Shown piece after piece: positions 31,369 through 60,600 of a stretch of DNA of 64,000 nt. The DNA comes from Bacteroidales bacterium (GTDB lineage Bacteria > Bacteroidota > Bacteroidia > Bacteroidales > VadinHA17). A program made the translations under genes and the position numbers. How positions within the stretch are numbered: position 1 is the stretch's first letter; the number at the start of each line of letters is the position of its first letter. Location: the NCBI GenBank assembly GCA_003141715.1, contig PLNF01000035.1, positions 68,498 to 132,497 of the forward strand. The letters run 5' to 3'. The notes beneath the pieces are model-generated. The model did no database searches, was not told the origin of the DNA, and saw only the letters and a list, made by a program, of their open reading frames with translations.

Positions 31369-31415
31369 ATTTTTTGCTATTCCGATTTTTTTTTGTTGCT
31401 TTGTACCGTAATAGA

Positions 31416-31472
31416 TTAGTGGAAAGATTTGTGCTGATTGCAACCACAGGAAAAAAATGCTAAACCGCGGAT
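31416..31472 (+). ncRNA. SAM-II-like riboswitch upstream of metK
   Basis: GTGG-aaaGATTTG..GATTGCAA-CCAC-aggaaaaaaATGCTAAA: P1 pairing plus conserved UUGCAACCAC and GCUAAA core, ~65 nt before the metK start. Confidence 0.6.
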
Positions 31473-31537
31473 AATTCCCTTTTTACAATCAACCAATCTT
31501 CCTGTATGATGTTTAATAATAAATTAATAATATTATT

Positions 31538-40448: not shown

Positions 40449-40561
40449 TTTTTATCATCTCCCGGCTTTCCGGGATTAGGTTTTGGCACCGTTCTCCTAA
40501 ACTTCAGGATTGGTTGCCAGGGTTTCGCAGAGCCTAATCTCTTCACCCTTCTTAATAAAAA
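40449..40561 (-). ncRNA. SAM-I-like (S-box) riboswitch upstream of metY-hom-metH-metF
   Basis: Minus strand TTTTTATT-AAGAAGGGTGAAGAGATTAGGCTCTGCGAAACCCTGGCAACC..CGGTGCCAAAACCTAATCCCGG..GGGAGATGATAAAAA; P1 TTTTTAT/ATAAAAA. Confidence 0.88.
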
Positions 40562-46994: not shown

Positions 46995-47300
46995 TTGGTT
47001 GATAATTGGAATGCAATGGCTGGTTTGAAATCGATACTTTCCAAATCTGCTTCAGTAGTTAACCGGAAAACCGGAAATGAATATGTGCTTGTGCCCATTA
47101 CAAACAACATAGCAGATATGAACAGCGTTTATACTCTGAATGAGACAGGTGCTTTCATATGGGAACAAATTGACGGAAAAAGAAGTGTTGAAGAGGTCAT
47201 TAATGCCTTGACAGCTGAGTATGATATTGACTTTAAAAATGCAGAGGCAGATGTTTTTTCTTTTGTTGAAAATATGAGTAAATATCTTATTATCCATTAA
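46995..47300 (+). CDS. PqqD-like peptide-chaperone family protein
   Basis: VYTLNETGAFIWEQIDGKRSVEEVINALTAEYDID. Confidence 0.85.
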   Translation: MVDNWNAMAGLKSILSKSASVVNRKTGNEYVLVPITNNIADMNSVYTLNETGAFIWEQIDGKRSVEEVINALTAEYDIDFKNAEADVFSFVENMSKYLIIH

Positions 47301-47330
47301 TAGAAAAACTTGCTATTACGATTTTTTTTA

Positions 47331-47368
47331 TTGCCACCAAGACACAAAGACACCAAGTAGCACCAAGG
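47331..47368 (+). repeat. Left inverted repeat of the GxxExxY unit
   Basis: TTGCCACCAAGACACAAAGACACCAAGTAGCACCAAGG; inverse of 47762..47799. Confidence 0.9.
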
Positions 47369-47369
47369 T

Positions 47370-47759
47370 ATGTTTAAAGAAATTTCACAGGAAGAAGATC
47401 GGATTGGCAAAGAAATTGTCAATGCAGCTTTTCATGTTCACACGCAACTTGGTCCTGGATTATTAGAAAAAGTATATGAAGTCTGCTTTTGTTATGTTTT
47501 GGCACAGAAGGGATTTGAAATAAAAAGACAATTAGATATACCAATTGTATTTGAAGGATTAGTTTTCGAAGAAGGTTTAAGATTAGATGTCATGGTCAAC
47601 GATCTGGTCATTTGCGAACTTAAGGCTTTAGAGAATGTAAATCCAGTGTGGGAAGCACAGTTACTTAGCCATCTTAAATTAACAAACAAACGTTTAGGTT
47701 ATCTTATAAATTTTAATGTTCCTTTAATTAAAAATGGTATTAAAAGAATAGTGATTTAG
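47370..47759 (+). CDS. GxxExxY family protein (PD-(D/E)XK nuclease-like)
   Basis: HVHTQLGPGLLEKVYEVCFCYVLAQKGFEIKRQ; LDVMVNDLVICELKALENV. Confidence 0.9.
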   Translation: MFKEISQEEDRIGKEIVNAAFHVHTQLGPGLLEKVYEVCFCYVLAQKGFEIKRQLDIPIVFEGLVFEEGLRLDVMVNDLVICELKALENVNPVWEAQLLSHLKLTNKRLGYLINFNVPLIKNGIKRIVI

Positions 47760-47761
47760 TT

Positions 47762-47799
47762 CTTGGTGATTACTTTGTGTCTTGGTGTCTTTGTGGCAA
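47762..47799 (-). repeat. Right inverted repeat of the GxxExxY unit
   Basis: Reverse complement TTGCCACAAAGACACCAAGACACAAAGTAATCACCAAG. Confidence 0.9.
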
Positions 47800-47827
47800 A
47801 AATCTAATACACAAATGCTTTAAAAAT

Positions 47828-48715
47828 ATGAGGAATTATAACTTAAATATTGCAGGATATAATATCGGGTTTGAAGCTTCAGCCAACGGACCTGAGCTTA
47901 AACCGTCGGCAAGATTCCTCAGAAATATCAACCCGAATAACTTATCGGATATCCTCATCCGGGTTCATTCAGAGCCCTTTAATCTGCCAAAAGGAGCTGA
48001 AAGGGTTTTCAGGGCTCCTTACGTTGAAGAGATAAATGGCATCCAGTTCAATAATGAGACAAACTTCTGGAGTGTCTGGAAATATCGCTCCGAACTTTTT
48101 ATCTGGACAATCTTCCCACTCTCTGTTTCAGAGAAAAATGCAGTATTGAAATTCTCACTTACATCGATGGAATGGGACCTCTGGATTTACGGTGCCCGGG
48201 ATGAGACAGATCCTTTTGAGTATCCCCTGGACGGACTGATACTATATTACCTGACAGTTATAAATGGGGATATAATGATCCATGCATCGGGAGTTAACAA
48301 TTCAGGACATGGTTATATCTTCAGCGGAGTGTCAGGAAAAGGGAAATCGACAATGGCAAAGCTCTGGGATAATTCCGGAGCTAAGGTCATCCACGATGAC
48401 AGGCTTATTTTAAGAAATTCAGGAGGTGGCTACAGGATGTTTAATACTCCGGTTTATAATAATGATGAACCTCGTGAATCAACCCTTAACAAGATTTTTA
48501 TTATTGAACATGGTCTTGAAAATATGCTGGTCCCGTTAAAAGGAGCCAATGCAGTGACACAGGTAATGGCGAACTGTATACAACATAACTGGGGGGCAGA
48601 CATCATCGCCAGGCTTCTTGGTTCTATTTCGATTATGTGCGGGACGATACCAACATCAAAGCTATTCTTCAAACCCGACAGAAGTGTAATTGACCTTATC
48701 CTCGACAATGAATAA
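47828..48715 (+). CDS. HPr kinase/phosphorylase-like P-loop protein (ATG 47828 preferred)
   Basis: IMIHASGVNNSGHGYIFSGVSGKGKSTMAKLW; VIHDDRLILR. Confidence 0.82.
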   Translation: MRNYNLNIAGYNIGFEASANGPELKPSARFLRNINPNNLSDILIRVHSEPFNLPKGAERVFRAPYVEEINGIQFNNETNFWSVWKYRSELFIWTIFPLSVSEKNAVLKFSLTSMEWDLWIYGARDETDPFEYPLDGLILYYLTVINGDIMIHASGVNNSGHGYIFSGVSGKGKSTMAKLWDNSGAKVIHDDRLILRNSGGGYRMFNTPVYNNDEPRESTLNKIFIIEHGLENMLVPLKGANAVTQVMANCIQHNWGADIIARLLGSISIMCGTIPTSKLFFKPDRSVIDLILDNE

Positions 48716-49172
48716 CTGGCGGAACAATCATACGATTGTGAAAGATATCGGTCTCACTTTACTCGCCGAAGGAAAAACCATCAGGATAAAAGCTCACGGG
48801 TACAGTATGTATCCCTGCATTAAACCAGGTTCCCTGATACTGATCGAACCGTTGAATATCAAGGGGATGCCCCGCTCCGGAGAGATTATTGCAATTCGTA
48901 GAGAGAGCGGTCTTATCGTCCACCGTCTTTCTAAAATAATAAACAAGAATGGAGTTAAATGGTATATCGCAAGAGGAGACAGTAATGCATATGCCGATAA
49001 TCCGATTAAATTAGATAAAATAGCAGGACGGATAGTGCGAGCTGAATCCACGGGAGAAAACCCGGTTCCTGCTGATATCAGTATTAACACAAAACCAAAT
49101 TATTTTGTTAACAGGATAAGAGTGATAGGTTTGCTTTTATGGAAAAAATTAAACTATTCAGGGAATCTTTAA
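48690..49172 (+). CDS. S24/S26-like signal-peptidase-fold protein
   Basis: IRIKAHGYSMYPCIKPGSLILIEPL; GEIIAIRRESGLIVHRLSKI; WYIARGDSN. Confidence 0.82.
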   Translation: MTLSSTMNNWRNNHTIVKDIGLTLLAEGKTIRIKAHGYSMYPCIKPGSLILIEPLNIKGMPRSGEIIAIRRESGLIVHRLSKIINKNGVKWYIARGDSNAYADNPIKLDKIAGRIVRAESTGENPVPADISINTKPNYFVNRIRVIGLLLWKKLNYSGNL

Positions 49173-50923
49173 GGCTTGTCTGGAACAGCTCCCCGGGATG
49201 GACTTTCACAAATATTGTGATGTCTGTTCTGCGGAGTGTCTTCCCTCTAATGCTTATCTGGCTTCTGAAAGTAGTTATTGATGACATAACTAAAGCTGCC
49301 ACGGCAGCTCCCTCCAATCCGAACATAAATGTGCTCTGGCCGGTATTGGCAGTGGTTATAATCTGGTTTCTCGATGAAGCCTCATCTGATTTCAGCAATT
49401 ATGTCCGTAAAAAACAGGCATTGAAGCTTGAGGTCTATATGTATGGATTGTTGCATTCAAAGGCCATAAAACTGGACCTTATCAACTTTGAGCGTCCCGA
49501 ATATTTCGATTGCCTGTCACGCGCCTCACGGGAAGCCCCATGGCGCCCGAACAGCATCCTTAATAACCTGGTTTCAATGCTAAGAGGGCTTCTCTCTCTG
49601 TTACTTATGGCCGGACTTATCTTTACTCTTCACTGGACTCTTGCTTTACTTCTTCTTGTTGCAAATATTCCCGGAATATGGTTACGGCTCTATTATGCAG
49701 ATATCCTGTATAATTTTCAGAGGCAGCAAACTCCCGAAGCAAGAAAATCTGCATATTTTAACTGGCTGCTTACAGGTGACAGGCCTTCCAGGGAACTGAG
49801 GCTGTTCGGACTGGGAAATTATTTCATCAGCCTCTTCAGAAAGTCTTTCCTGAAGCAAAAAGAGGAAGAGATCAATATCATCCGAAGAAGAACACTGATA
49901 GAATTTGTTTCTAATCTTTTCAAAGCATCAGCTCTTTTAGTTTCCCTGTTGTTTATCGCACGCCAAACAATCAGCGGAAAACTTTCGCTTGGTCAAATGG
50001 CTATGTTCCTGCTTGCTTTCAGGCAGGGAATGATATATATTAAAGATCTGTTCAGTTCACTGGCAGGACTGTATGAAGATAGTCTCTTCATCGGCGACGC
50101 ATTTGAATTTCTGAATCTGAAAGAAAATGTCACAGCTGCTGAACCGGTAATTGTGCCATCTCCGCTAAAGAAAAAAATAGAGGTAGATAATCTGTCCTTC
50201 ACCTATCCGGGGAATAACTTCAGGACTATAAGTAATGTCTCATTTGAAATAAAAAAGGGAGAAATAATAGCTCTCGTCGGACCTAACGGTGCCGGGAAAA
50301 GCACTCTTGTGAGGCTGCTATGCAGACTTTATGATTCCGATTCGGGAAACATTAAATATGACGGCACGGATATCAGGAATATCGATCCTGAAGAGTACAG
50401 GAAACATTTTTCAGTTGTTTTTCAGGACTTTATGCTTTACAATCTTACAGCCGGAGAGAACATCCGGATGGGAAATATTGATGAAAAAAGTCCTGATGGC
50501 CGGATAAAAGCATCAGCAACAACTACCGGTGTTCATGAATTAATCGATAATCTGCCAAATGGTTATGAGACTGTTATCGGAAACCTGTTTGATGACAGCC
50601 GTGAACTCAGCTGGGGGGAGTGGCAGAAGATTGCCCTGGCAAGAGCTCTCTTCAGGGATGCTCCGGTACTGATCCTCGATGAGCCATCCAGCGCCCTGGA
50701 TGCTGGCACGGAATATGATATCTTCAGCCGGTTCAGGGAGATAGTTAAAGGCCGTACATCGATTCTTATAAGTCATCGGTTTACAAATGTCAGCCTGGCT
50801 GACAGGATAATTGTCCTCGATAAAGGGGCAATTGCTGAAACCGGTACGCATGATGAGCTTATGAAGAGAGGCGGAATCTATTTCACAATGTTTACAAGGC
50901 AGAGCAGCAGGTTTAACAAATGA
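49139..50923 (+). CDS. ABC transporter, fused permease/ATPase
   Basis: TM domain; Walker A GPNGAGKST; ELSWGEWQKIALARALFRDAPVLILDEPSS. Confidence 0.92.
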   Translation: MEKIKLFRESLRLVWNSSPGWTFTNIVMSVLRSVFPLMLIWLLKVVIDDITKAATAAPSNPNINVLWPVLAVVIIWFLDEASSDFSNYVRKKQALKLEVYMYGLLHSKAIKLDLINFERPEYFDCLSRASREAPWRPNSILNNLVSMLRGLLSLLLMAGLIFTLHWTLALLLLVANIPGIWLRLYYADILYNFQRQQTPEARKSAYFNWLLTGDRPSRELRLFGLGNYFISLFRKSFLKQKEEEINIIRRRTLIEFVSNLFKASALLVSLLFIARQTISGKLSLGQMAMFLLAFRQGMIYIKDLFSSLAGLYEDSLFIGDAFEFLNLKENVTAAEPVIVPSPLKKKIEVDNLSFTYPGNNFRTISNVSFEIKKGEIIALVGPNGAGKSTLVRLLCRLYDSDSGNIKYDGTDIRNIDPEEYRKHFSVVFQDFMLYNLTAGENIRMGNIDEKSPDGRIKASATTTGVHELIDNLPNGYETVIGNLFDDSRELSWGEWQKIALARALFRDAPVLILDEPSSALDAGTEYDIFSRFREIVKGRTSILISHRFTNVSLADRIIVLDKGAIAETGTHDELMKRGGIYFTMFTRQSSRFNK

Positions 50924-52092
50924 AAAACAAAATTAAGATAAGGGATGAAGAGTACCTTCTGCTAGGATTATGCCGTCTTGAATTTAGTAATGAACAACTA
51001 AACAAAATCAGGTCACTTGTTGTTGTAATAACCGACTGGAACTATTTCAGGAACCTTGCCAATGAACATGGTGTGGCAGCGCTGGTCTGGCATAATCTTG
51101 AAAAACACTCTCTTTTCCCCGGAATACCTGAGGAGGTTGTTACTTATCTGCGAAGTACATTGATGATAAGCCTGAGCCGGAATACTTTCAATACCGAATC
51201 AATGGGTGAGGTTCTCCGGCTGCTGAATGCGGAGAATATCAAAACGGTTATTCTTAAGGGACTGGCACTTGAGAATTCCGTTTATGGCAGTTCGGGACTA
51301 CGGCAGATGTCAGATGTTGATATCCTGATTAACAGGGAAGAGTGCATCAAAGCAAGAAAGATCCTTATCAGTAACGGATATGAATCGCTTCCTGTAAAAT
51401 CATTTTTTCATAACCTTATAATTGGCTATTCCGGCAAACATCTTCCCTCGCTCATTAAGAGCGGGACTTCTGTTGAGATACACCATGAGCTTTTCGGTGG
51501 GAGAAAAAACTTACTGACCAAATTGCTGTACGATAGCAGCTATGAGGTTGAGTTAAAAGGAGAAAAAACCTGGTTTCCTCAGCCGCAGATCTTTTTTCTT
51601 TATCTCGTCAAGCATCTCTGGCTGCATGAGATGAATAATGAATCACAACTCAGGTTATACACTGATCTAATTGTTCTGATCGAAAAATATAATGATGAGA
51701 TATTAAATTATAATCTCCTTAAGTATGCCTCAAAGGCAGGTATGTCAGAGATACTTGCGTGGCATCTGGAGCCATTAAGAGATATGTGGAGCGTATCCTT
51801 TCCGGGATGGCTCAACGATTTTATTGATAAATGGCATAATCAGGATTTTATTAATAAGTTTTTTTTCTTCCTCAGGAGTCCGAAGGATAATCCGCCTGGT
51901 GATAAGGCAGGGTTTTATCGTCATATTTTAGGCGATATTCCCGGATTACATCGTAAGTTTCTGTATGTTTTAGGAGATCTTTTTCCATCTGTCAGTTTTA
52001 TGAAGAACCGTTACAAATGTAAAAGTACGTGGCGCGTGTTGCTTTATTATCCTCATAGATTAGGGAAGGTTTTGTGGTTGTTTAGGAAATGA
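50920..52092 (+). CDS. Nucleotidyltransferase-like protein (NTP_transf_5 type)
   Basis: ILKGLALENSVYGSSGLRQMSDVDILINREE; SVEIHHEL. Confidence 0.82.
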   Translation: MKNKIKIRDEEYLLLGLCRLEFSNEQLNKIRSLVVVITDWNYFRNLANEHGVAALVWHNLEKHSLFPGIPEEVVTYLRSTLMISLSRNTFNTESMGEVLRLLNAENIKTVILKGLALENSVYGSSGLRQMSDVDILINREECIKARKILISNGYESLPVKSFFHNLIIGYSGKHLPSLIKSGTSVEIHHELFGGRKNLLTKLLYDSSYEVELKGEKTWFPQPQIFFLYLVKHLWLHEMNNESQLRLYTDLIVLIEKYNDEILNYNLLKYASKAGMSEILAWHLEPLRDMWSVSFPGWLNDFIDKWHNQDFINKFFFFLRSPKDNPPGDKAGFYRHILGDIPGLHRKFLYVLGDLFPSVSFMKNRYKCKSTWRVLLYYPHRLGKVLWLFRK

Positions 52093-52168
52093 ACTGATTC
52101 TTTACTGTTCATTTGGCTTCGCTCCGGTTCCGGGTTGCCTTCGCGCCACCGATTAGAAAACTTTGTAC

Positions 52169-52228
52169 TAGGTATCTTACCCCCTCTGTCCCGCCGAAGC
52201 GGGACATCTCCCCCAATGGGGCGAAAAC
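52169..52228. repeat. Palindromic interspersed repeat
   Basis: ACCCCCTCTGTCCCGCCGAAGCGGGACATCTCCCCCAATGGGGCG. Confidence 0.8.
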
Positions 52229-52481
52229 TTTCATTATGAATTTGGGATTTCAAGCGGTCTCAGAGAATTTTTCTAATGAACAGAAAATAAAGACAAAGAA
52301 AGTGACATATGTTTGTGGTGACACCCTATAAATCCTTTCTTAAAAATCAAGTTTTTTGTGGAAAATTGAATTATTTTCAAATAAAATGTAAAATAATTAC
52401 AAATATATTTGGCGAATTACCTCTTTTTTGTTTAATTTTATAACTGAAGTCACATTCAAGGCAATATTAATTCTGGCAATA

Positions 52482-52691
52482 ATGAACAAGTTTCAGAAAG
52501 AGACTCTAAAGATGAGGTTACTAAAACTTGCGATGTTAAAGAGCACGGGGGCGCCTGCTGAACTGGCCTTAAGATTTGAGATTAGCGAACGAAGTGTAAA
52601 GAGGATTGTTAAAGAAATCCGGGAAGAGGGAACAGATCTCAGGTACAGTCAGTCGAGGCGATCATATGTAACAGACGAAGATTATCAATAA
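52482..52691 (+). CDS. Small HTH DNA-binding protein
   Basis: MLKSTGAPAELALRFEISERSVKRIVKEIREEGTDLRYSQSRRSYV; TATATTTG promoter-like site at 52404. Confidence 0.65.
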   Translation: MNKFQKETLKMRLLKLAMLKSTGAPAELALRFEISERSVKRIVKEIREEGTDLRYSQSRRSYVTDEDYQ

Positions 52692-53753: not shown

Positions 53754-54449
53754 TTACCGCGATAATACAAAACAATAAATGCTATTTATAAGTATATGTG
53801 AGGCAATACATAAATAAATGCCTTTTGCATACCTAACTCTTAAATAGCCCCAAAAACATCCTGAGAATATATAATTCATTATGAACAGAGGAAATAGATA
53901 GAAATACTTAATTTCTATATTATAGTTTGTCAGATGTAAAAATCCAAATAACAAGGCTTGAAAATAGAAAACCACTCGAAATTTTAAAGTGAAAAAGTCG
54001 ATTAATTTAATGAGGAAGAAGGAGTCTTCTCGAAGAAATAAAGAGAGAGAAAAATACAAAATTAGTGAAAGGGATATAGCTAAATAAACATTGGATATTA
54101 AACGTTTAAAGACCAGCAAAGAAATTAATATACTAAATGATATTACCAAATTAAATTTAGAACTCCGTAGGGGAAGTCTGAAGATTAACTCTTCAATTAT
54201 AGGGTAGAATAAGGAAATCTTCAATATATTAAATAAACTAAAATTTATTCCCTTTACAGATGGAAATAAATTAAAATATATTAGTGGCCCGCAAAAAAGT
54301 AGCCCTAAAATAATATCGCTTGCCAGAAGAATAAGAAATGATTTCCAGACCAGCTTTAAAAATGAAGAAAGTGATTTAATATCAAATTGTTTCTCAAGAC
54401 TAGGATTTTTGAGAAATATAATAAAATCACTAAAATCAATCATTTTCAA
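53754..54449 (-). CDS. CPBP-family intramembrane metalloprotease (possible immunity protein)
   Basis: Multi-TM; YPIIEELIFRLPLR motif, FGFLHLTN, ASHILINSIYC. Confidence 0.75.
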   Translation of the reverse strand: MKMIDFSDFIIFLKNPSLEKQFDIKSLSSFLKLVWKSFLILLASDIILGLLFCGPLIYFNLFPSVKGINFSLFNILKISLFYPIIEELIFRLPLRSSKFNLVISFSILISLLVFKRLISNVYLAISLSLILYFSLSLFLREDSFFLIKLIDFFTLKFRVVFYFQALLFGFLHLTNYNIEIKYFYLFPLFIMNYIFSGCFWGYLRVRYAKGIYLCIASHILINSIYCFVLSR

Positions 54450-54495
54450 TTTGAAAATCGATTAATTGTAAAGTCTATGATACGAGATCTAATAT

Positions 54496-54527
54496 AGAGA
54501 AATGCAATTGAATAATTGCATTTCTCT
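54496..54527. terminator. 14-bp perfect inverted repeat between peptide 3 and the CPBP gene
   Basis: AGAGAAATGCAATT-gaat-AATTGCATTTCTCT. Confidence 0.55.
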
Positions 54528-54539
54528 AACATTAATTTA

Positions 54540-54680
54540 CTAAAGAAGCTCAAAGAGGGATCTTAAAAAAAAGAATTTTTTAAGACCACTTCCTATAGCA
54601 TATCCAACTTCATAAGCAACATTTACTCCTCCTGAAATTTGTACCATTTCAGATAATTCTAATTCTTTTAAATTTTCCAT
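54540..54680 (-). CDS. Double-glycine leader peptide 3 (46 aa; bacteriocin-like precursor)
   Basis: Manual translation MENLKELELSEMVQISGG|VNVAYEVGYAIGSGLKKFFFLRSLFELL*; not in ORF track. Confidence 0.82.
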   Translation of the reverse strand: MENLKELELSEMVQISGGVNVAYEVGYAIGSGLKKFFFLRSLFELL

Positions 54681-54700
54681 AATAAATATATTTAAATTTT

Positions 54701-54868
54701 TTATTGTGCATGTTGGCCATCAATCCCATCTTGCACTCCTTTGATCAAGGCAACAGCTGCTCCTACGGTAGCACCAATAATCAGTCCAAGATAATAACTG
54801 AAAGTTTTCCCTCCATCAATTGAAATCATTTCTTTTGATGTAAGTTCTATGACTCCAAACTTTTCCAT
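54701..54868 (-). CDS. Double-glycine leader peptide 2 (55 aa; class II bacteriocin-like precursor)
   Basis: Manual translation MEKFGVIELTSKEMISIDGG|KTFSYYLGLIIGATVGAAVALIKGVQDGIDGQHAQ*; GxxxG motifs; not in ORF track. Confidence 0.86.
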   Translation of the reverse strand: MEKFGVIELTSKEMISIDGGKTFSYYLGLIIGATVGAAVALIKGVQDGIDGQHAQ

Positions 54869-54883
54869 AAATAAAATTTTTAA

Positions 54884-55048
54884 TTAAATTTTTATTGCTC
54901 TTTCATAACCGTCCTTTATTCCTTCAATTAGTTCAAGAACTTTTCCTCCTGAAGTCAAAAAGAGTGATATTATAGACTGAAACATACCACCATTAAACTC
55001 CTTTAGTTCATTCTCATTTAAATCAATTAAGCCGAATTTATTTCCCAT
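54884..55048 (-). CDS. Double-glycine leader peptide 1 (54 aa; bacteriocin-like precursor)
   Basis: Manual translation MGNKFGLIDLNENELKEFNGG|MFQSIISLFLTSGGKVLELIEGIKDGYERAIKI*; not in ORF track. Confidence 0.86.
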   Translation of the reverse strand: MGNKFGLIDLNENELKEFNGGMFQSIISLFLTSGGKVLELIEGIKDGYERAIKI

Positions 55049-55108
55049 AACTTTAATTTTTTATTTGAAATTTTACTCTTTCCCCATTTCTTTCACATGC
55101 CCGGGGCT

Positions 55109-55453
55109 TTAGCATGGTAATATTACCATACTAAGGTCGTAGAGCAGCGTCCGGAAAAAAAGGATTTTGGAGAAAATATTTATTCCACCGGAATTTTCTT
55201 GTTCTTCATTATAGCTCAATGGCCGTAGGGAACAGGTCACAGCTATATCATATGGCTGCCGGTAGAAAAATGTCTTTGCCGATTTTGAATATACGATTGG
55301 CGCCCCACGTGATCTTAATTCATCAATCAACTCATAAAGACTGGTACGGCTAATACCCAGCTGCTGTGCAAACTCTTCCGGAGTTCCTGTCTTCTGCCTC
55401 GAGACAAGCTTATGCATCATACTTATGCGATCGAGATATTCAAAGACTTTCAT
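55109..55453 (-). CDS. HTH regulator with C-terminal double-glycine-like extension
   Basis: KTGTPEEFAQQLGISRTSLYELIDELRSRGAPIVYSKSAKTFFY; tail LSYNEEQENSGG|INIFSKILFFRTLLYDLSMVILPC. Confidence 0.75.
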   Translation of the reverse strand: MKVFEYLDRISMMHKLVSRQKTGTPEEFAQQLGISRTSLYELIDELRSRGAPIVYSKSAKTFFYRQPYDIAVTCSLRPLSYNEEQENSGGINIFSKILFFRTLLYDLSMVILPC

Positions 55454-55466
55454 GATATATTGTATT

Positions 55467-57635
55467 TTATGGTTTTATGGTTTCTTTAATATCAATTGTC
55501 TGGTGCAGCCACATCCTGCGAAATGGCCCGTCAATTACTGACAGTTCTGTTAATGACCCGTCCTGAACAACCAATCCCTTTTCAAGCATAATGACCCTTT
55601 GAGCCATAAGAATTGTTGATAGCCTGTGGGCAATTACAATTACTGTTTTAGATTCTTCCCTCAATAACCTCAGAGTGTTTTGCACAAATGTCTCCGCCAG
55701 TGAGTCAAGCGAGGAGGTGGCTTCATCAAGGATCAGAATCTCCGGATTTCGATAAAGTGCCCTGGCAATAGCTATTCGTTGCTGTTGCCCTCCGGACAAT
55801 GTGGCTCCGTTTTCTCCCAGGTATGTATTGAATCCATGTGGCAGTTGCTCTATGAATTTTGTCATCCCTAGTTTGTCGCATACTTCAATCACCCTGGTCA
55901 TATCAGGATTAAAATCCCCGACAGCAATGTTATCCACAACATTCCCTGAAAACAGATCAATCCTTTGAGGTACAACAGAAACAATCTTACGCAATGACTG
56001 GTTGGTAAGATGACGGAGATCATAACGTCCAATGCGGATATGACCCGACTGAAGAGGATAGAGATTTTGAAGTAATGAAACCAGAGTAGTTTTACCTGAA
56101 CCGCTCTCACCTGCTACAGCAGTTATATCTCCTTTCTTAATTGTAAGATTCAGCGAATCGAAAACATCAACTCTGGTACCATACCTGAACTTTACATTCT
56201 CAAAATGTATGTCATCAACCATTTCCAGTTTTAGTTCTATTTTATTTGACTCATCTTCTATCTCCAGATCAAAAATTTCAAATAGTCTGTCTGAAGCAAT
56301 CCTTGCATCCTGTAATGTGCGGTTAAATCCGATTACAGAGGTAACCGGAGCAGTAAAATATCCTACAACCGAATAAAATGAAAGCAACTCCCCGGGTGTA
56401 ATTTGTGATCCAATTGCATATCCCGCTCCAACCCATAATACAAGAATTGTAATCAGTTGGGAAATAAGACTGGTTGAACTTGATGAAAAAATGCCATTTA
56501 ATCCTGACTTATAAATTATCTCCAGAAGATTGACAAATCTTGTCTCTGTTTTCAGATTTGAAAAATCTTCGAGCCCGAACCGTTTAATAGTTCCAACTGA
56601 GTTGAGAGATTCCACCAGTTGTGCCTCAAGGTCAGCCGCCCGTTCCATGACCTTCCGCTGAACCTTCCTGTTAAGTCTGTCAGAGACATAATATATCAGT
56701 GCATAGAATGGGACAACAATAAGCAAGATCAGTGCCAATTTCCAAAAGAAGGTGAACATAAGTGCAAACGAAACAACCAGAATGAAAAGGTTTAGAATAA
56801 AACTTATGGTGACCTCATTTACAAATACCCGTATTTTGACTGCATCACCAATTCTTGATATTATTTCGCCTGTTCGCATATTATCAAAAAAGGTCTGCGG
56901 CAGTTTTAATAGATGCTGATAGTATCCAAGTATAAGTGTTGCATCAATTTTCTGACCAGTCTTAAGAATAAAGATTGTCTGGAAGAAACTAAGCAGGAGA
57001 CGTAGTACAATTATGAGAACCATTGCAAAACCCAGCAGGTTTAAAAGGCTAAGATTTCCGCCCGGAAGTACAGTATCTACAAGCTTCCCTACATAAATTG
57101 ACATTGCAAGACCAAGCACAGAAAATACCAGCGCACCTGCAAGAGATTGTAACAGGATGCCTCTGTGAGGTTTTATCAAATTCCAGAAGCGAGCCTGAGT
57201 TGAAATCTTTTCATTTTTAACTGTAAACTTTTCACCTGGAGCTATAAGTACCAACACTCCGGTCCACTCTTTTTTGAATTCTTCATGTTCAATCTTATGA
57301 AAGTCCCCATCTGCGGGATCCATTATTTCAATATACTTATCAGTTGTTTTTATCAGAACAACATAGTGATGAAGCACCTCTCTCACAATAACATGTGCAA
57401 TTGCCGGTTTTGGTATTTTGAATAAACTATCCCAATCACCTCTTACACCTTTTGCCAGAAATCCCATCTTTCCTGCAGCCTCTACAAGTCCTAAAACATT
57501 TGTCCCTTTTTTATCAGTTCCGGCAAATTGTCTTATTCGTGCAACCGGCAATTTCAGATGGTAATGGGCGGCAATTGAGGCAAGACACGCTGCCCCGCAA
57601 TCGGTAATATCCCTCTGTTTTACTTTTATACTCAT
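55467..57635 (-). CDS. Peptidase-containing (C39) ABC transporter, bacteriocin/RiPP exporter
   Basis: VKQRDITDCGAACLASIAAHY; HHYVVL; MDPADG; Walker A GESGSGKT; LSGGQQQRIAIARAL. Confidence 0.96.
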   Translation of the reverse strand: MSIKVKQRDITDCGAACLASIAAHYHLKLPVARIRQFAGTDKKGTNVLGLVEAAGKMGFLAKGVRGDWDSLFKIPKPAIAHVIVREVLHHYVVLIKTTDKYIEIMDPADGDFHKIEHEEFKKEWTGVLVLIAPGEKFTVKNEKISTQARFWNLIKPHRGILLQSLAGALVFSVLGLAMSIYVGKLVDTVLPGGNLSLLNLLGFAMVLIIVLRLLLSFFQTIFILKTGQKIDATLILGYYQHLLKLPQTFFDNMRTGEIISRIGDAVKIRVFVNEVTISFILNLFILVVSFALMFTFFWKLALILLIVVPFYALIYYVSDRLNRKVQRKVMERAADLEAQLVESLNSVGTIKRFGLEDFSNLKTETRFVNLLEIIYKSGLNGIFSSSSTSLISQLITILVLWVGAGYAIGSQITPGELLSFYSVVGYFTAPVTSVIGFNRTLQDARIASDRLFEIFDLEIEDESNKIELKLEMVDDIHFENVKFRYGTRVDVFDSLNLTIKKGDITAVAGESGSGKTTLVSLLQNLYPLQSGHIRIGRYDLRHLTNQSLRKIVSVVPQRIDLFSGNVVDNIAVGDFNPDMTRVIEVCDKLGMTKFIEQLPHGFNTYLGENGATLSGGQQQRIAIARALYRNPEILILDEATSSLDSLAETFVQNTLRLLREESKTVIVIAHRLSTILMAQRVIMLEKGLVVQDGSLTELSVIDGPFRRMWLHQTIDIKETIKP

Positions 57636-57639
57636 AATA

Positions 57640-58830
57640 TTATGACCCCTTTACATAGGTGTAAGGATTGAACCATTTATCTGCCTTATCGAATAATAAA
57701 TGATATAAACTCCGTCGAATTACGATGATCCTGGTATTGAGGCTCATTCCCTTTTTAATTTCAGCTTTATAACCATTCTTTAATGAAAGGAATGTTTTTT
57801 CAGGTTTACACTTAACCCTGAAATATGCGACCGATCCATCTTCAACAATCATATCATCAGAAATATCAATAATATCACCCTGCAGCATTCCCCATTCATT
57901 ATAGTTAAATGCATCCACCTGAATTTTGACTTTCTGCTTCTCATGGATAAATCCGATTTCAGCAGGTTTTACAAAACAGGTCGCAACCAGTTCTCCTTCC
58001 GGTGAAATCTCTGCAATTTTCTGTCCCGGAGCTACAATGCTTCCTGTCTGAATATCTGAACTTTGAATGATTTCCCCGGCTGTCGGAGCCAGGACTATCC
58101 GGTTTGTCAACTCCTCAGAGCATTGCTTTAAATCGGCAAGAAGTTTGACTGAATCATTTCTGCGTATGGTTAAATCGCTCTGCCATTGTGATTTCTGAGA
58201 TAATAATATCTGATCCAGATTGTCTTTCTCGGAAGTAAGCAAAAAGAGGCTGTTTTCATAATCGATTTTTGGTATGATCTGTTGATTATAAAGAAGTTTA
58301 TTCCGTTCATGTTCAGTTTTTTTCTTCTGATATTTTTGAAACTGGATCGTTTGCTGATTTCTGAGATTTTCAAATTCAGCCTTATATTGTTGTGTAATTA
58401 GTCCGATATGAAAAGGCCGTTCTTCTAAGAAATATATTTTCGTCAGTTTTTCCAGATCCTTAATAGAAGCATCATTTTCCCCTATCCTCTGCATCAGGGA
58501 AGCATGTTGAGCCCTGATAGTTTCTGTATCAAAGACTAAAAGAGTATCACCTTTTCTTACTGCTCCTCCGTTACGTATCGATGTATAGATAATTCTCCCC
58601 TGGAACGGAGCAAGAACCACCTGTTTTTCAATATCCGATTGAAAATAGCCTCTGGCCTGCACTGAAACATCCACATAGATAAAAGGAAGAATTCCAATAG
58701 CAATCATGATCATCCCAATAATAATCCAATAGATAATCCTGCTCCTGGTCGTTATGTTTATCAGGTAGGTTTCAAGACTGAATTTTGATATAGAAAATGG
58801 GATCAGTTCCACTTTTATAACTTCTAGCAC
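57640..58830 (-). CDS. HlyD-family periplasmic adaptor (GTG start in ORF track)
   Basis: VQARGYFQSDIEKQVVLAPFQGRIIYTSIRNGGAVRKGDTLLVFD; coiled coil; IVLAPTAGEIIQS. Confidence 0.92.
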   Translation of the reverse strand: MLEVIKVELIPFSISKFSLETYLINITTRSRIIYWIIIGMIMIAIGILPFIYVDVSVQARGYFQSDIEKQVVLAPFQGRIIYTSIRNGGAVRKGDTLLVFDTETIRAQHASLMQRIGENDASIKDLEKLTKIYFLEERPFHIGLITQQYKAEFENLRNQQTIQFQKYQKKKTEHERNKLLYNQQIIPKIDYENSLFLLTSEKDNLDQILLSQKSQWQSDLTIRRNDSVKLLADLKQCSEELTNRIVLAPTAGEIIQSSDIQTGSIVAPGQKIAEISPEGELVATCFVKPAEIGFIHEKQKVKIQVDAFNYNEWGMLQGDIIDISDDMIVEDGSVAYFRVKCKPEKTFLSLKNGYKAEIKKGMSLNTRIIVIRRSLYHLLFDKADKWFNPYTYVKGS

Positions 58831-60238: not shown

Positions 60239-60339
60239 TGTCTTCCGATTAATTTCGTTACGATATTTTTCGCAAGTAAAGTTATGCTAATTTTCGTTTA
60301 TCGCAAACAAATCCGGTAATAAATTTGCGGGATCTCCCT

Positions 60340-60600
60340 AAATTGACTCTGCTTCGGGAGTAAAACCCTTCTATCCCGCCGAAGCGGCATCTCCCAGAAA
60401 CAATTCTGTCTCGGGTTAGAAAACCCCTCTGTCCCGCTGAAGCGGGACATCTCCCTGAAACAATTCTGTCTCGGGTTAGAAAACCCCTCTGTCCCGCTGA
60501 AGCGGGACATCTCCCCCAGGGGGGAGAAAAACTGTGGTATTTACCTGAATTACACTTGAATACAGAGTATTAGCCCCCCTTCAGGGGGGTTGGGGGGCAG
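60340..60600. repeat. 60-bp tandem palindromic repeat (~3 units) plus shared tail
   Basis: CAATTCTGTCTCGGGTTAGAAAACCCCTCTGTCCCGCTGAAGCGGGACATCTCCCTGAAA iterated with exact 60-bp spacing; tail GGGGGGAGAAAAACTGTGGTATTTACCTGAATTACACTTG. Confidence 0.9.

Follow-up and report, generated by a model that had tools for sequence, protein, structure and literature searches.

A 64-kb stretch of the genome of a Bacteroidales bacterium (contig PLNF01000035.1, positions 68,498 to 132,497; hereafter the window) carries at 53754-58830 a locus which we interpret as a multi-peptide double-glycine (GG) bacteriocin cassette. The winged helix-turn-helix (HTH) regulator of this cassette bears a GG-leader motif of its own, through which it may attach to the exporter encoded beside it or be cleaved by it. 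This interpretation was built from sequence comparison and we give it a probability of about 0.68. Its two components are graded separately: the bacteriocin cassette is probable, and a direct contact between the regulator and the C39 peptidase domain of the exporter is a tentative proposal, rather unlikely at present. The original prediction for this DNA, which described the cassette, was largely upheld in that part and had overlooked both the GG-leader motif of the regulator and the cis element overlapping the end of its gene.

All genes of the cassette lie on the minus strand. The gene of a 396-aa HlyD-type periplasmic adaptor (57640..58830; Pfam HlyD_3, 1.3e-18) is followed by that of a peptidase-containing ATP-binding cassette (ABC) transporter (PCAT) of 722 aa (55467..57635), in which an N-terminal C39 peptidase (Peptidase_C39, 4.8e-33) is fused, in this order, to a transmembrane domain (ABC_membrane) and a nucleotide-binding domain (ABC_tran). 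The catalytic Cys of the C39 domain is present (DITDCGAACL). The exporter scored 512 bits against TIGR01193, slightly under the cut-off of 524, and its orthologues are 57-92% identical. The 114-aa regulator comes next (55109..55453; HTH_11, 5.3e-6, together with an AlphaFold2 model and a 30-sequence alignment), then the three peptide genes and finally a CPBP/Rce1-like membrane protease, the presumed immunity protein (53754..54449; PF02517, 4.6e-7). The latter reached 30.5 bits, over a cut-off of 22.4, and contains the EExxxR, FxxxH and HxxxN motifs. All four neighbours that had been named for the peptides (HlyD, C39-ABC, HTH and CPBP) were therefore borne out by Pfam. Between the third peptide and the CPBP gene there is a perfect 15-bp stem with a 4-nt loop (54495..54528, minus strand; repeat I7), and a similar stem was also seen at the same place in locus L138.

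The three peptide genes are open reading frames (ORFs) that begin with ATG and occupy exactly the predicted coordinates. Peptide 1 (54884..55048) has 54 aa, divided into a leader of 21 aa and a core of 33 aa; peptide 2 (54701..54868), with 55 aa, is divided into 20 and 35 aa, and peptide 3 (54540..54680), with 46 aa, into 18 and 28 aa, the core sizes being those expected. In each leader (LNENELKEFNGG, LTSKEMISIDGG and LELSEMVQISGG, respectively) hydrophobic residues occupy positions -12, -7 and -4, glutamate occupies -8, and GG closes a leader within the range of 15-25 aa. A strict regular expression for such leaders, applied to the ATG ORFs of 35-90 aa of the whole window, picked these three and no other ORF; first-order Markov shuffles averaged 0.03 matches per window. 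The cores are hydrophobic and Cys-free, GxxxG motifs were found in peptides 2 and 3 as claimed, and peptide 3 also contains a GYAIG motif.

The host genome is a draft of 3.7 Mb in 148 contigs, 94% complete, and its close relatives are Bacteroidales metagenome-assembled genomes (MAGs), several of them named fen_9xx. Orthologues of all three peptides and of the CPBP protein are present in two sister genomes, G005 (L049) and G032 (L138, at a contig end). Frame-breaking indels were looked for in both and none was found, and the GG leaders are retained. Since the proportion of nonsynonymous differences (pN) between pairs of orthologous peptides was 0.05-0.22 against 0.36-0.67 for synonymous ones (pS), the three peptides are very likely translated and under purifying selection. 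The matching order HlyD-HTH-peptide 1-peptide 2-peptide 3-CPBP, followed here by the exporter, was found in G189 and G293, which belong to another family of the same class; peptide 1 has a counterpart in L119/L122. When cores of the window were paired with those of G189/G293, the best match was in register, with shuffle z of about 5 for peptide 1, 6 for peptide 2 and 5.5-8.7 for peptide 3. In the alignments with these distant counterparts GG is invariant and glycines are conserved. Some cross-matching occurs among the three peptides, which makes the pairing of partners likely but not certain. When 396 genomes sampled from the phylum were searched, peptides 2 and 3 matched strongly only in the genome of the window and in two f31/g54 genomes, with profiles that included the very sequences that matched strongly; judged by this sample, the trio is rare in the phylum. 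The comparison across related genomes, proposed in the original prediction as a check, thus spoke in its favour, with trio and CPBP retained and the gene order shared with a distant family.

Loci with exporters 75-91% identical hold different GG peptides, and even exporters 90-91% identical accompany unrelated ones. The cargo is of a two-peptide type in G006/G457 (L036), consists of three precursors in G009 (L040) and is of another type in G011 (L038). The pair of G006/G457, formed by a DWDNFK-type and a FAYD-type GG peptide, recurs in G049 and G253, which belong to other families; its occurrences (L036 8589-8983; L177 127-512; L120; L053 3108-3544) cover four species in three families, and it is likely a two-peptide bacteriocin. 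A CPBP gene comes after most cargo types (PF02517, 3e-18 for the 296-aa protein of L036 and 1.7e-17 for the 266-aa protein of L040), the gene 3' of the L038 peptide not being CPBP. As G006 and G009 share the ABC-transporter and S24-type neighbours of the window, the loci in these three genomes represent one chromosomal site. Because export is conserved, cargo is swappable and a membrane protein is paired with it, the locus resembles a bacteriocin/immunity island with exchangeable cargo, a resemblance which argues for that function and falls short of proof. The comparative evidence (purifying selection, the order shared at a distance and swapped cargo accompanied by CPBP) makes the reading as a secretion-processing-immunity cassette well supported; the immunity role of the CPBP protein is presumed from its position and from its repeated pairing with cargo. 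The earlier description of this cassette as fully self-contained did not hold, since an outer-membrane channel gene was not found within it; OEP-family genes are present elsewhere in the genome. The island offers varied and exchangeable candidates for multi-peptide bacteriocins, together with the presumed immunity genes paired with them. Two observations on related exporters were also made. In that of G006 (L055 3619-5787) Tyr replaces the C39 catalytic Cys (DITDYGAACL), indicating either an inactive peptidase or a sequencing error. L052 (contig C73; 4146-4280 and 8341-11826) contains the second PCAT of its genome, with a 429-aa protein after it and a lone GG peptide ORF of 44 aa upstream.

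Comparison with curated families indicated that the cassette may work like class IIb bacteriocins, and it is not assignable as a member of that class. Peptide 3 and both of its orthologues match lactococcin G-alpha weakly (16.9-18.2 bits), and peptide 2 matches G-beta in two of the three species (19-20 bits); against NF038034/NF038035 the three peptides gave 15-20 bits for an NCBIfam cut-off of 37. Scores with PF10439 (Bacteriocin_IIc) were 15.2 and 16.4 bits, the gathering score being 27.1, and the best cargo of related loci, with 23.5-25.2 bits, is also under this value. The class IIb likeness previously proposed is consequently no more than hinted at, as no match reached a curated cut-off. 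GG leaders, short hydrophobic cores with GxxxG, adjacent peptide genes and a PCAT with an accessory protein are shared with lactococcin G/enterocin 1071 and cerein 7B; however, the window has three peptides instead of two, its host is a Gram-negative member of the Bacteroidota and the scores are sub-cut-off.

The second component of our interpretation concerns the regulator, which contains LRPLSYNEEQENSGG at residues 76-90 (55184..55228, minus strand) and then 24 more aa to its C-terminus. The motif was delimited with a positional profile and with a cargo-leader matrix, which ranks it first among 100 windows of the protein. It is also found in Pedobacter ghigonis, Echinicola arenosa, a Marinifilum MAG and many further genomes and is conserved over the Bacteroidota. 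Because the 30 aligned regulators were picked for possessing the motif, the independent evidence lies in positions other than GG. In this alignment, which has an invariant last G preceded by G or A, hydrophobic residues are found at -15 in 27/30, at -12 in 29/30 and at -4 in 23/30 sequences, and glutamate at -8 in 22/30. For 16 clade representatives the -12/-8/-4 score was 42 vs 13.2 in shuffles, and none of 20,000 shuffles reached 42. The matrix, made from 36 cargo leaders with GG omitted and applied to all windows of each regulator, placed the motif first in 22/30 and among the top three in 26/30. The published contacts of the C39 domain of a PCAT are positions -4, -7, -12 and -15 and GG (PMC7018657), and those of ComA are Leu-12, Glu-8 and Leu-7 (cited in PMC6363468). 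Family-wide, the regulator motif fits the contacts at -15, -12, -4 and GG, and that at -7 does not fit, being hydrophobic in 5 of the 16 clade representatives, which is the chance expectation.

Genomic context also linked the motif to C39 genes. In a broader sample, a C39 gene lay no more than 4 kb away from motif-bearing HTH genes in 19/26 cases, compared with 13/52 for motif-less relatives (Fisher p = 7e-5, uncorrected for relatedness). Several of the seven motif-bearing genes away from C39 are at contig ends or near HlyD or an ABC fragment. The 13 motif-less genes near C39 include seven tail-less ones in the genus of the window, two with a GG missed by the strict rule and two apparently broken by a stop or a frameshift. 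AlphaFold2 modelled a winged HTH at residues 2-64 with high confidence (pLDDT), a low-confidence helix at the motif (81-87) and a disordered tail; the nearest PDB folds were the winged HTHs of NiaR and BirA, none with E <= 0.001. In G305, of a different family (L123 7176-7619), the HTH stop codon comes exactly after GG, mimicking a cleaved form, and the downstream DNA is similar to that of relatives. A GG-tagged regulator was not described in the portion of the open-access literature on GG leaders and HTH regulators that was covered. The window also encodes, at 52428-52691, a small HTH protein from the superfamily of the regulator; it lacks the tail and is widespread in the genus.

In the genus of the window, about 105 nt after the GG codons are conserved, from the 3' end of the HTH gene to just before the first peptide gene (55077..55181, minus strand). 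Third codon positions of the HTH gene are variable at 59/90 codons before GG vs 7/24 after it (p = 0.002). G009, in which the HTH tail is frameshifted, retains the DNA of the element and has another copy of it before the third precursor gene; apart from this copy, the short matches examined in the genus looked like chance. The element contains a C4/G4 stem and a 26-nt palindrome, TTAGCATGGTAATATTACCATACTAA (55109..55134, no strand assigned; repeat I21), with one mismatched pair, which was evaluated by a shuffle test, is the sole copy in the window and is a candidate operator or hairpin. A covariance model of the element matched only the genus of the window among 42 sources. In other clades inverted repeats after GG were clear in L117, L123, L119 and L132 and unclear in most, and for this reason we do not claim a phylum-wide operator.

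From these data a mechanism can be proposed. The C39 domain would cleave the three leaders at GG, the cores would be secreted via the exporter and HlyD, together with a TolC-type channel whose gene lies elsewhere, and they would act jointly on membranes of related bacteria while the CPBP protein shields the producer. With less confidence, the HTH protein would bind the palindrome located before the peptide genes and, by means of its leader motif, would be retained or cleaved by the C39 domain. The regulator would then be sequestered or processed as long as exporter is free and released when peptides occupy the exporter, so that competition of cargo and regulator for the peptidase would serve as a load sensor coupling cargo expression to export capacity. 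The broader version of this scheme, in which across the phylum the operon regulator is a ligand or substrate of the C39 exporter sensing its load and the trio of the window is one three-component bacteriocin regulated in this way, is speculative and we consider it doubtful. If true, peptide secretion would have a new and simple kind of feedback, with regulators reading exporter load via the tag of the cargo itself.

Several data weigh against our interpretation. Every class IIb profile match is below its curated cut-off, and CPBP proteins serve many other roles. Most regulators have E, Q or T at -7, where C39 substrates usually are hydrophobic, and the HTH protein of the window and its close clade have N at -4, so that binding may be weak. 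Besides, the tail-less HTH subgroup of the genus adjoins a different C39 clade, and the exporter of G037, 57% identical, showed no HTH gene at its side. The misfit at -7 would suit a GG motif that makes no contact with C39 and is either a structural turn or the evolutionary relic of a fused precursor, as would the post-GG region being frameshifted in G009 and stopped right after GG in G305. However, the motif is kept across the phylum at the positions read by C39, it is enriched beside C39 genes and the structural model gives it no confidently folded role; we place this explanation at somewhat less than even chances. The peptides could also be pheromones or a colonisation factor instead of toxins, exported by the PCAT, with the HTH protein responding to the state of export. 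A regulator is indeed embedded in the operon, and GG peptides also act in quorum sensing (PMC7018657). Nevertheless, the cores are hydrophobic, of 28-35 aa and two of them with GxxxG, the cargo differs among sister loci with CPBP retained in most, and neither a receptor kinase nor a response regulator was found in the cassette, so that a signalling role appears improbable.

The conserved region after GG admits two further explanations. One is that the HTH gene encodes the precursor of a pheromone, the short post-GG tail being what is exported, as a tail of 11-31 aa behind a leader-like motif, similar within the genus, might suggest. Nonetheless, the third-position counts show that this conservation is at the nucleotide level, the cis element which the tail overlies is also found on its own, with no HTH gene, and tails differ between clades. 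Given the DNA-level conservation and the frame broken by frameshift or stop in some species, the exported tail was down-weighted and we regard it as very improbable. The other is that the 105-nt element is an RNA structure, such as a processing or attenuation hairpin, and not a DNA operator. Its RNA fold z of -3.2, several one-sided changes that preserve G-U pairs and a 2-nt insertion at the palindrome centre in L037 are consistent with this; but covariation is minimal, with a single pair changed on both sides, no Rfam match was obtained for the element, and a near-perfect loopless palindrome is typical of operators. An RNA structure is accordingly a credible option, to which we assign a little under half of the weight.

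Garvicin KS-type bacteriocins are also made of three small peptides from a single locus. Garvicin KS is described as leaderless (PMC6412029), whereas in the window each peptide has a GG leader. In the literature covered, the class II bacteriocins described for the phylum are the bacteroidetocins, which likewise are GG-leader peptides of Bacteroidota with a C39-type ABC exporter (Coyne 2019, PMC6671954). Bacteroidetocins are, however, single, cysteine-containing and class IIa-like, and occur with a 5-TM protein and a thiol oxidoreductase and without an immunity gene (PMC6671954); the window cassette combines three Cys-free cores with HlyD, CPBP and HTH proteins, and neither a Cys-containing class IIa-like core nor 5-TM and thiol oxidoreductase neighbours were found in it. 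The pneumococcal rtg locus resembles the window in having a regulator, a PCAT and multiple GG peptides, and presents an inverted repeat at regulated promoters. It differs in its Rgg/SHP-like control, and a GG motif on the regulator is not mentioned in the available portion of that report (PMC7018657). The HTH protein shares its N-terminal fold with NiaR/BirA-like HTH_11 regulators but has no ligand domain, a C-terminal GG-leader motif standing in its place.

Outside the cassette, genes for a PqqD-like protein, an unassigned 312-aa protein, an S24-type peptidase, an ABC transporter and an NTP_transf_5 protein follow each other at 46995-52092. This row resembles a second peptide or maturation cluster, and its ABC and S24 neighbours also adjoin cargo in G006 and G009. 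A tandem repeat of MSRFSGTEGFSNPRQNCF at 60298-60510, with similar sequence near 52109-52234, may represent an intergenic repeat family. Finally, SAM and SAM-II riboswitches were identified with Rfam at 40449-40561 and 31413-31473, respectively.

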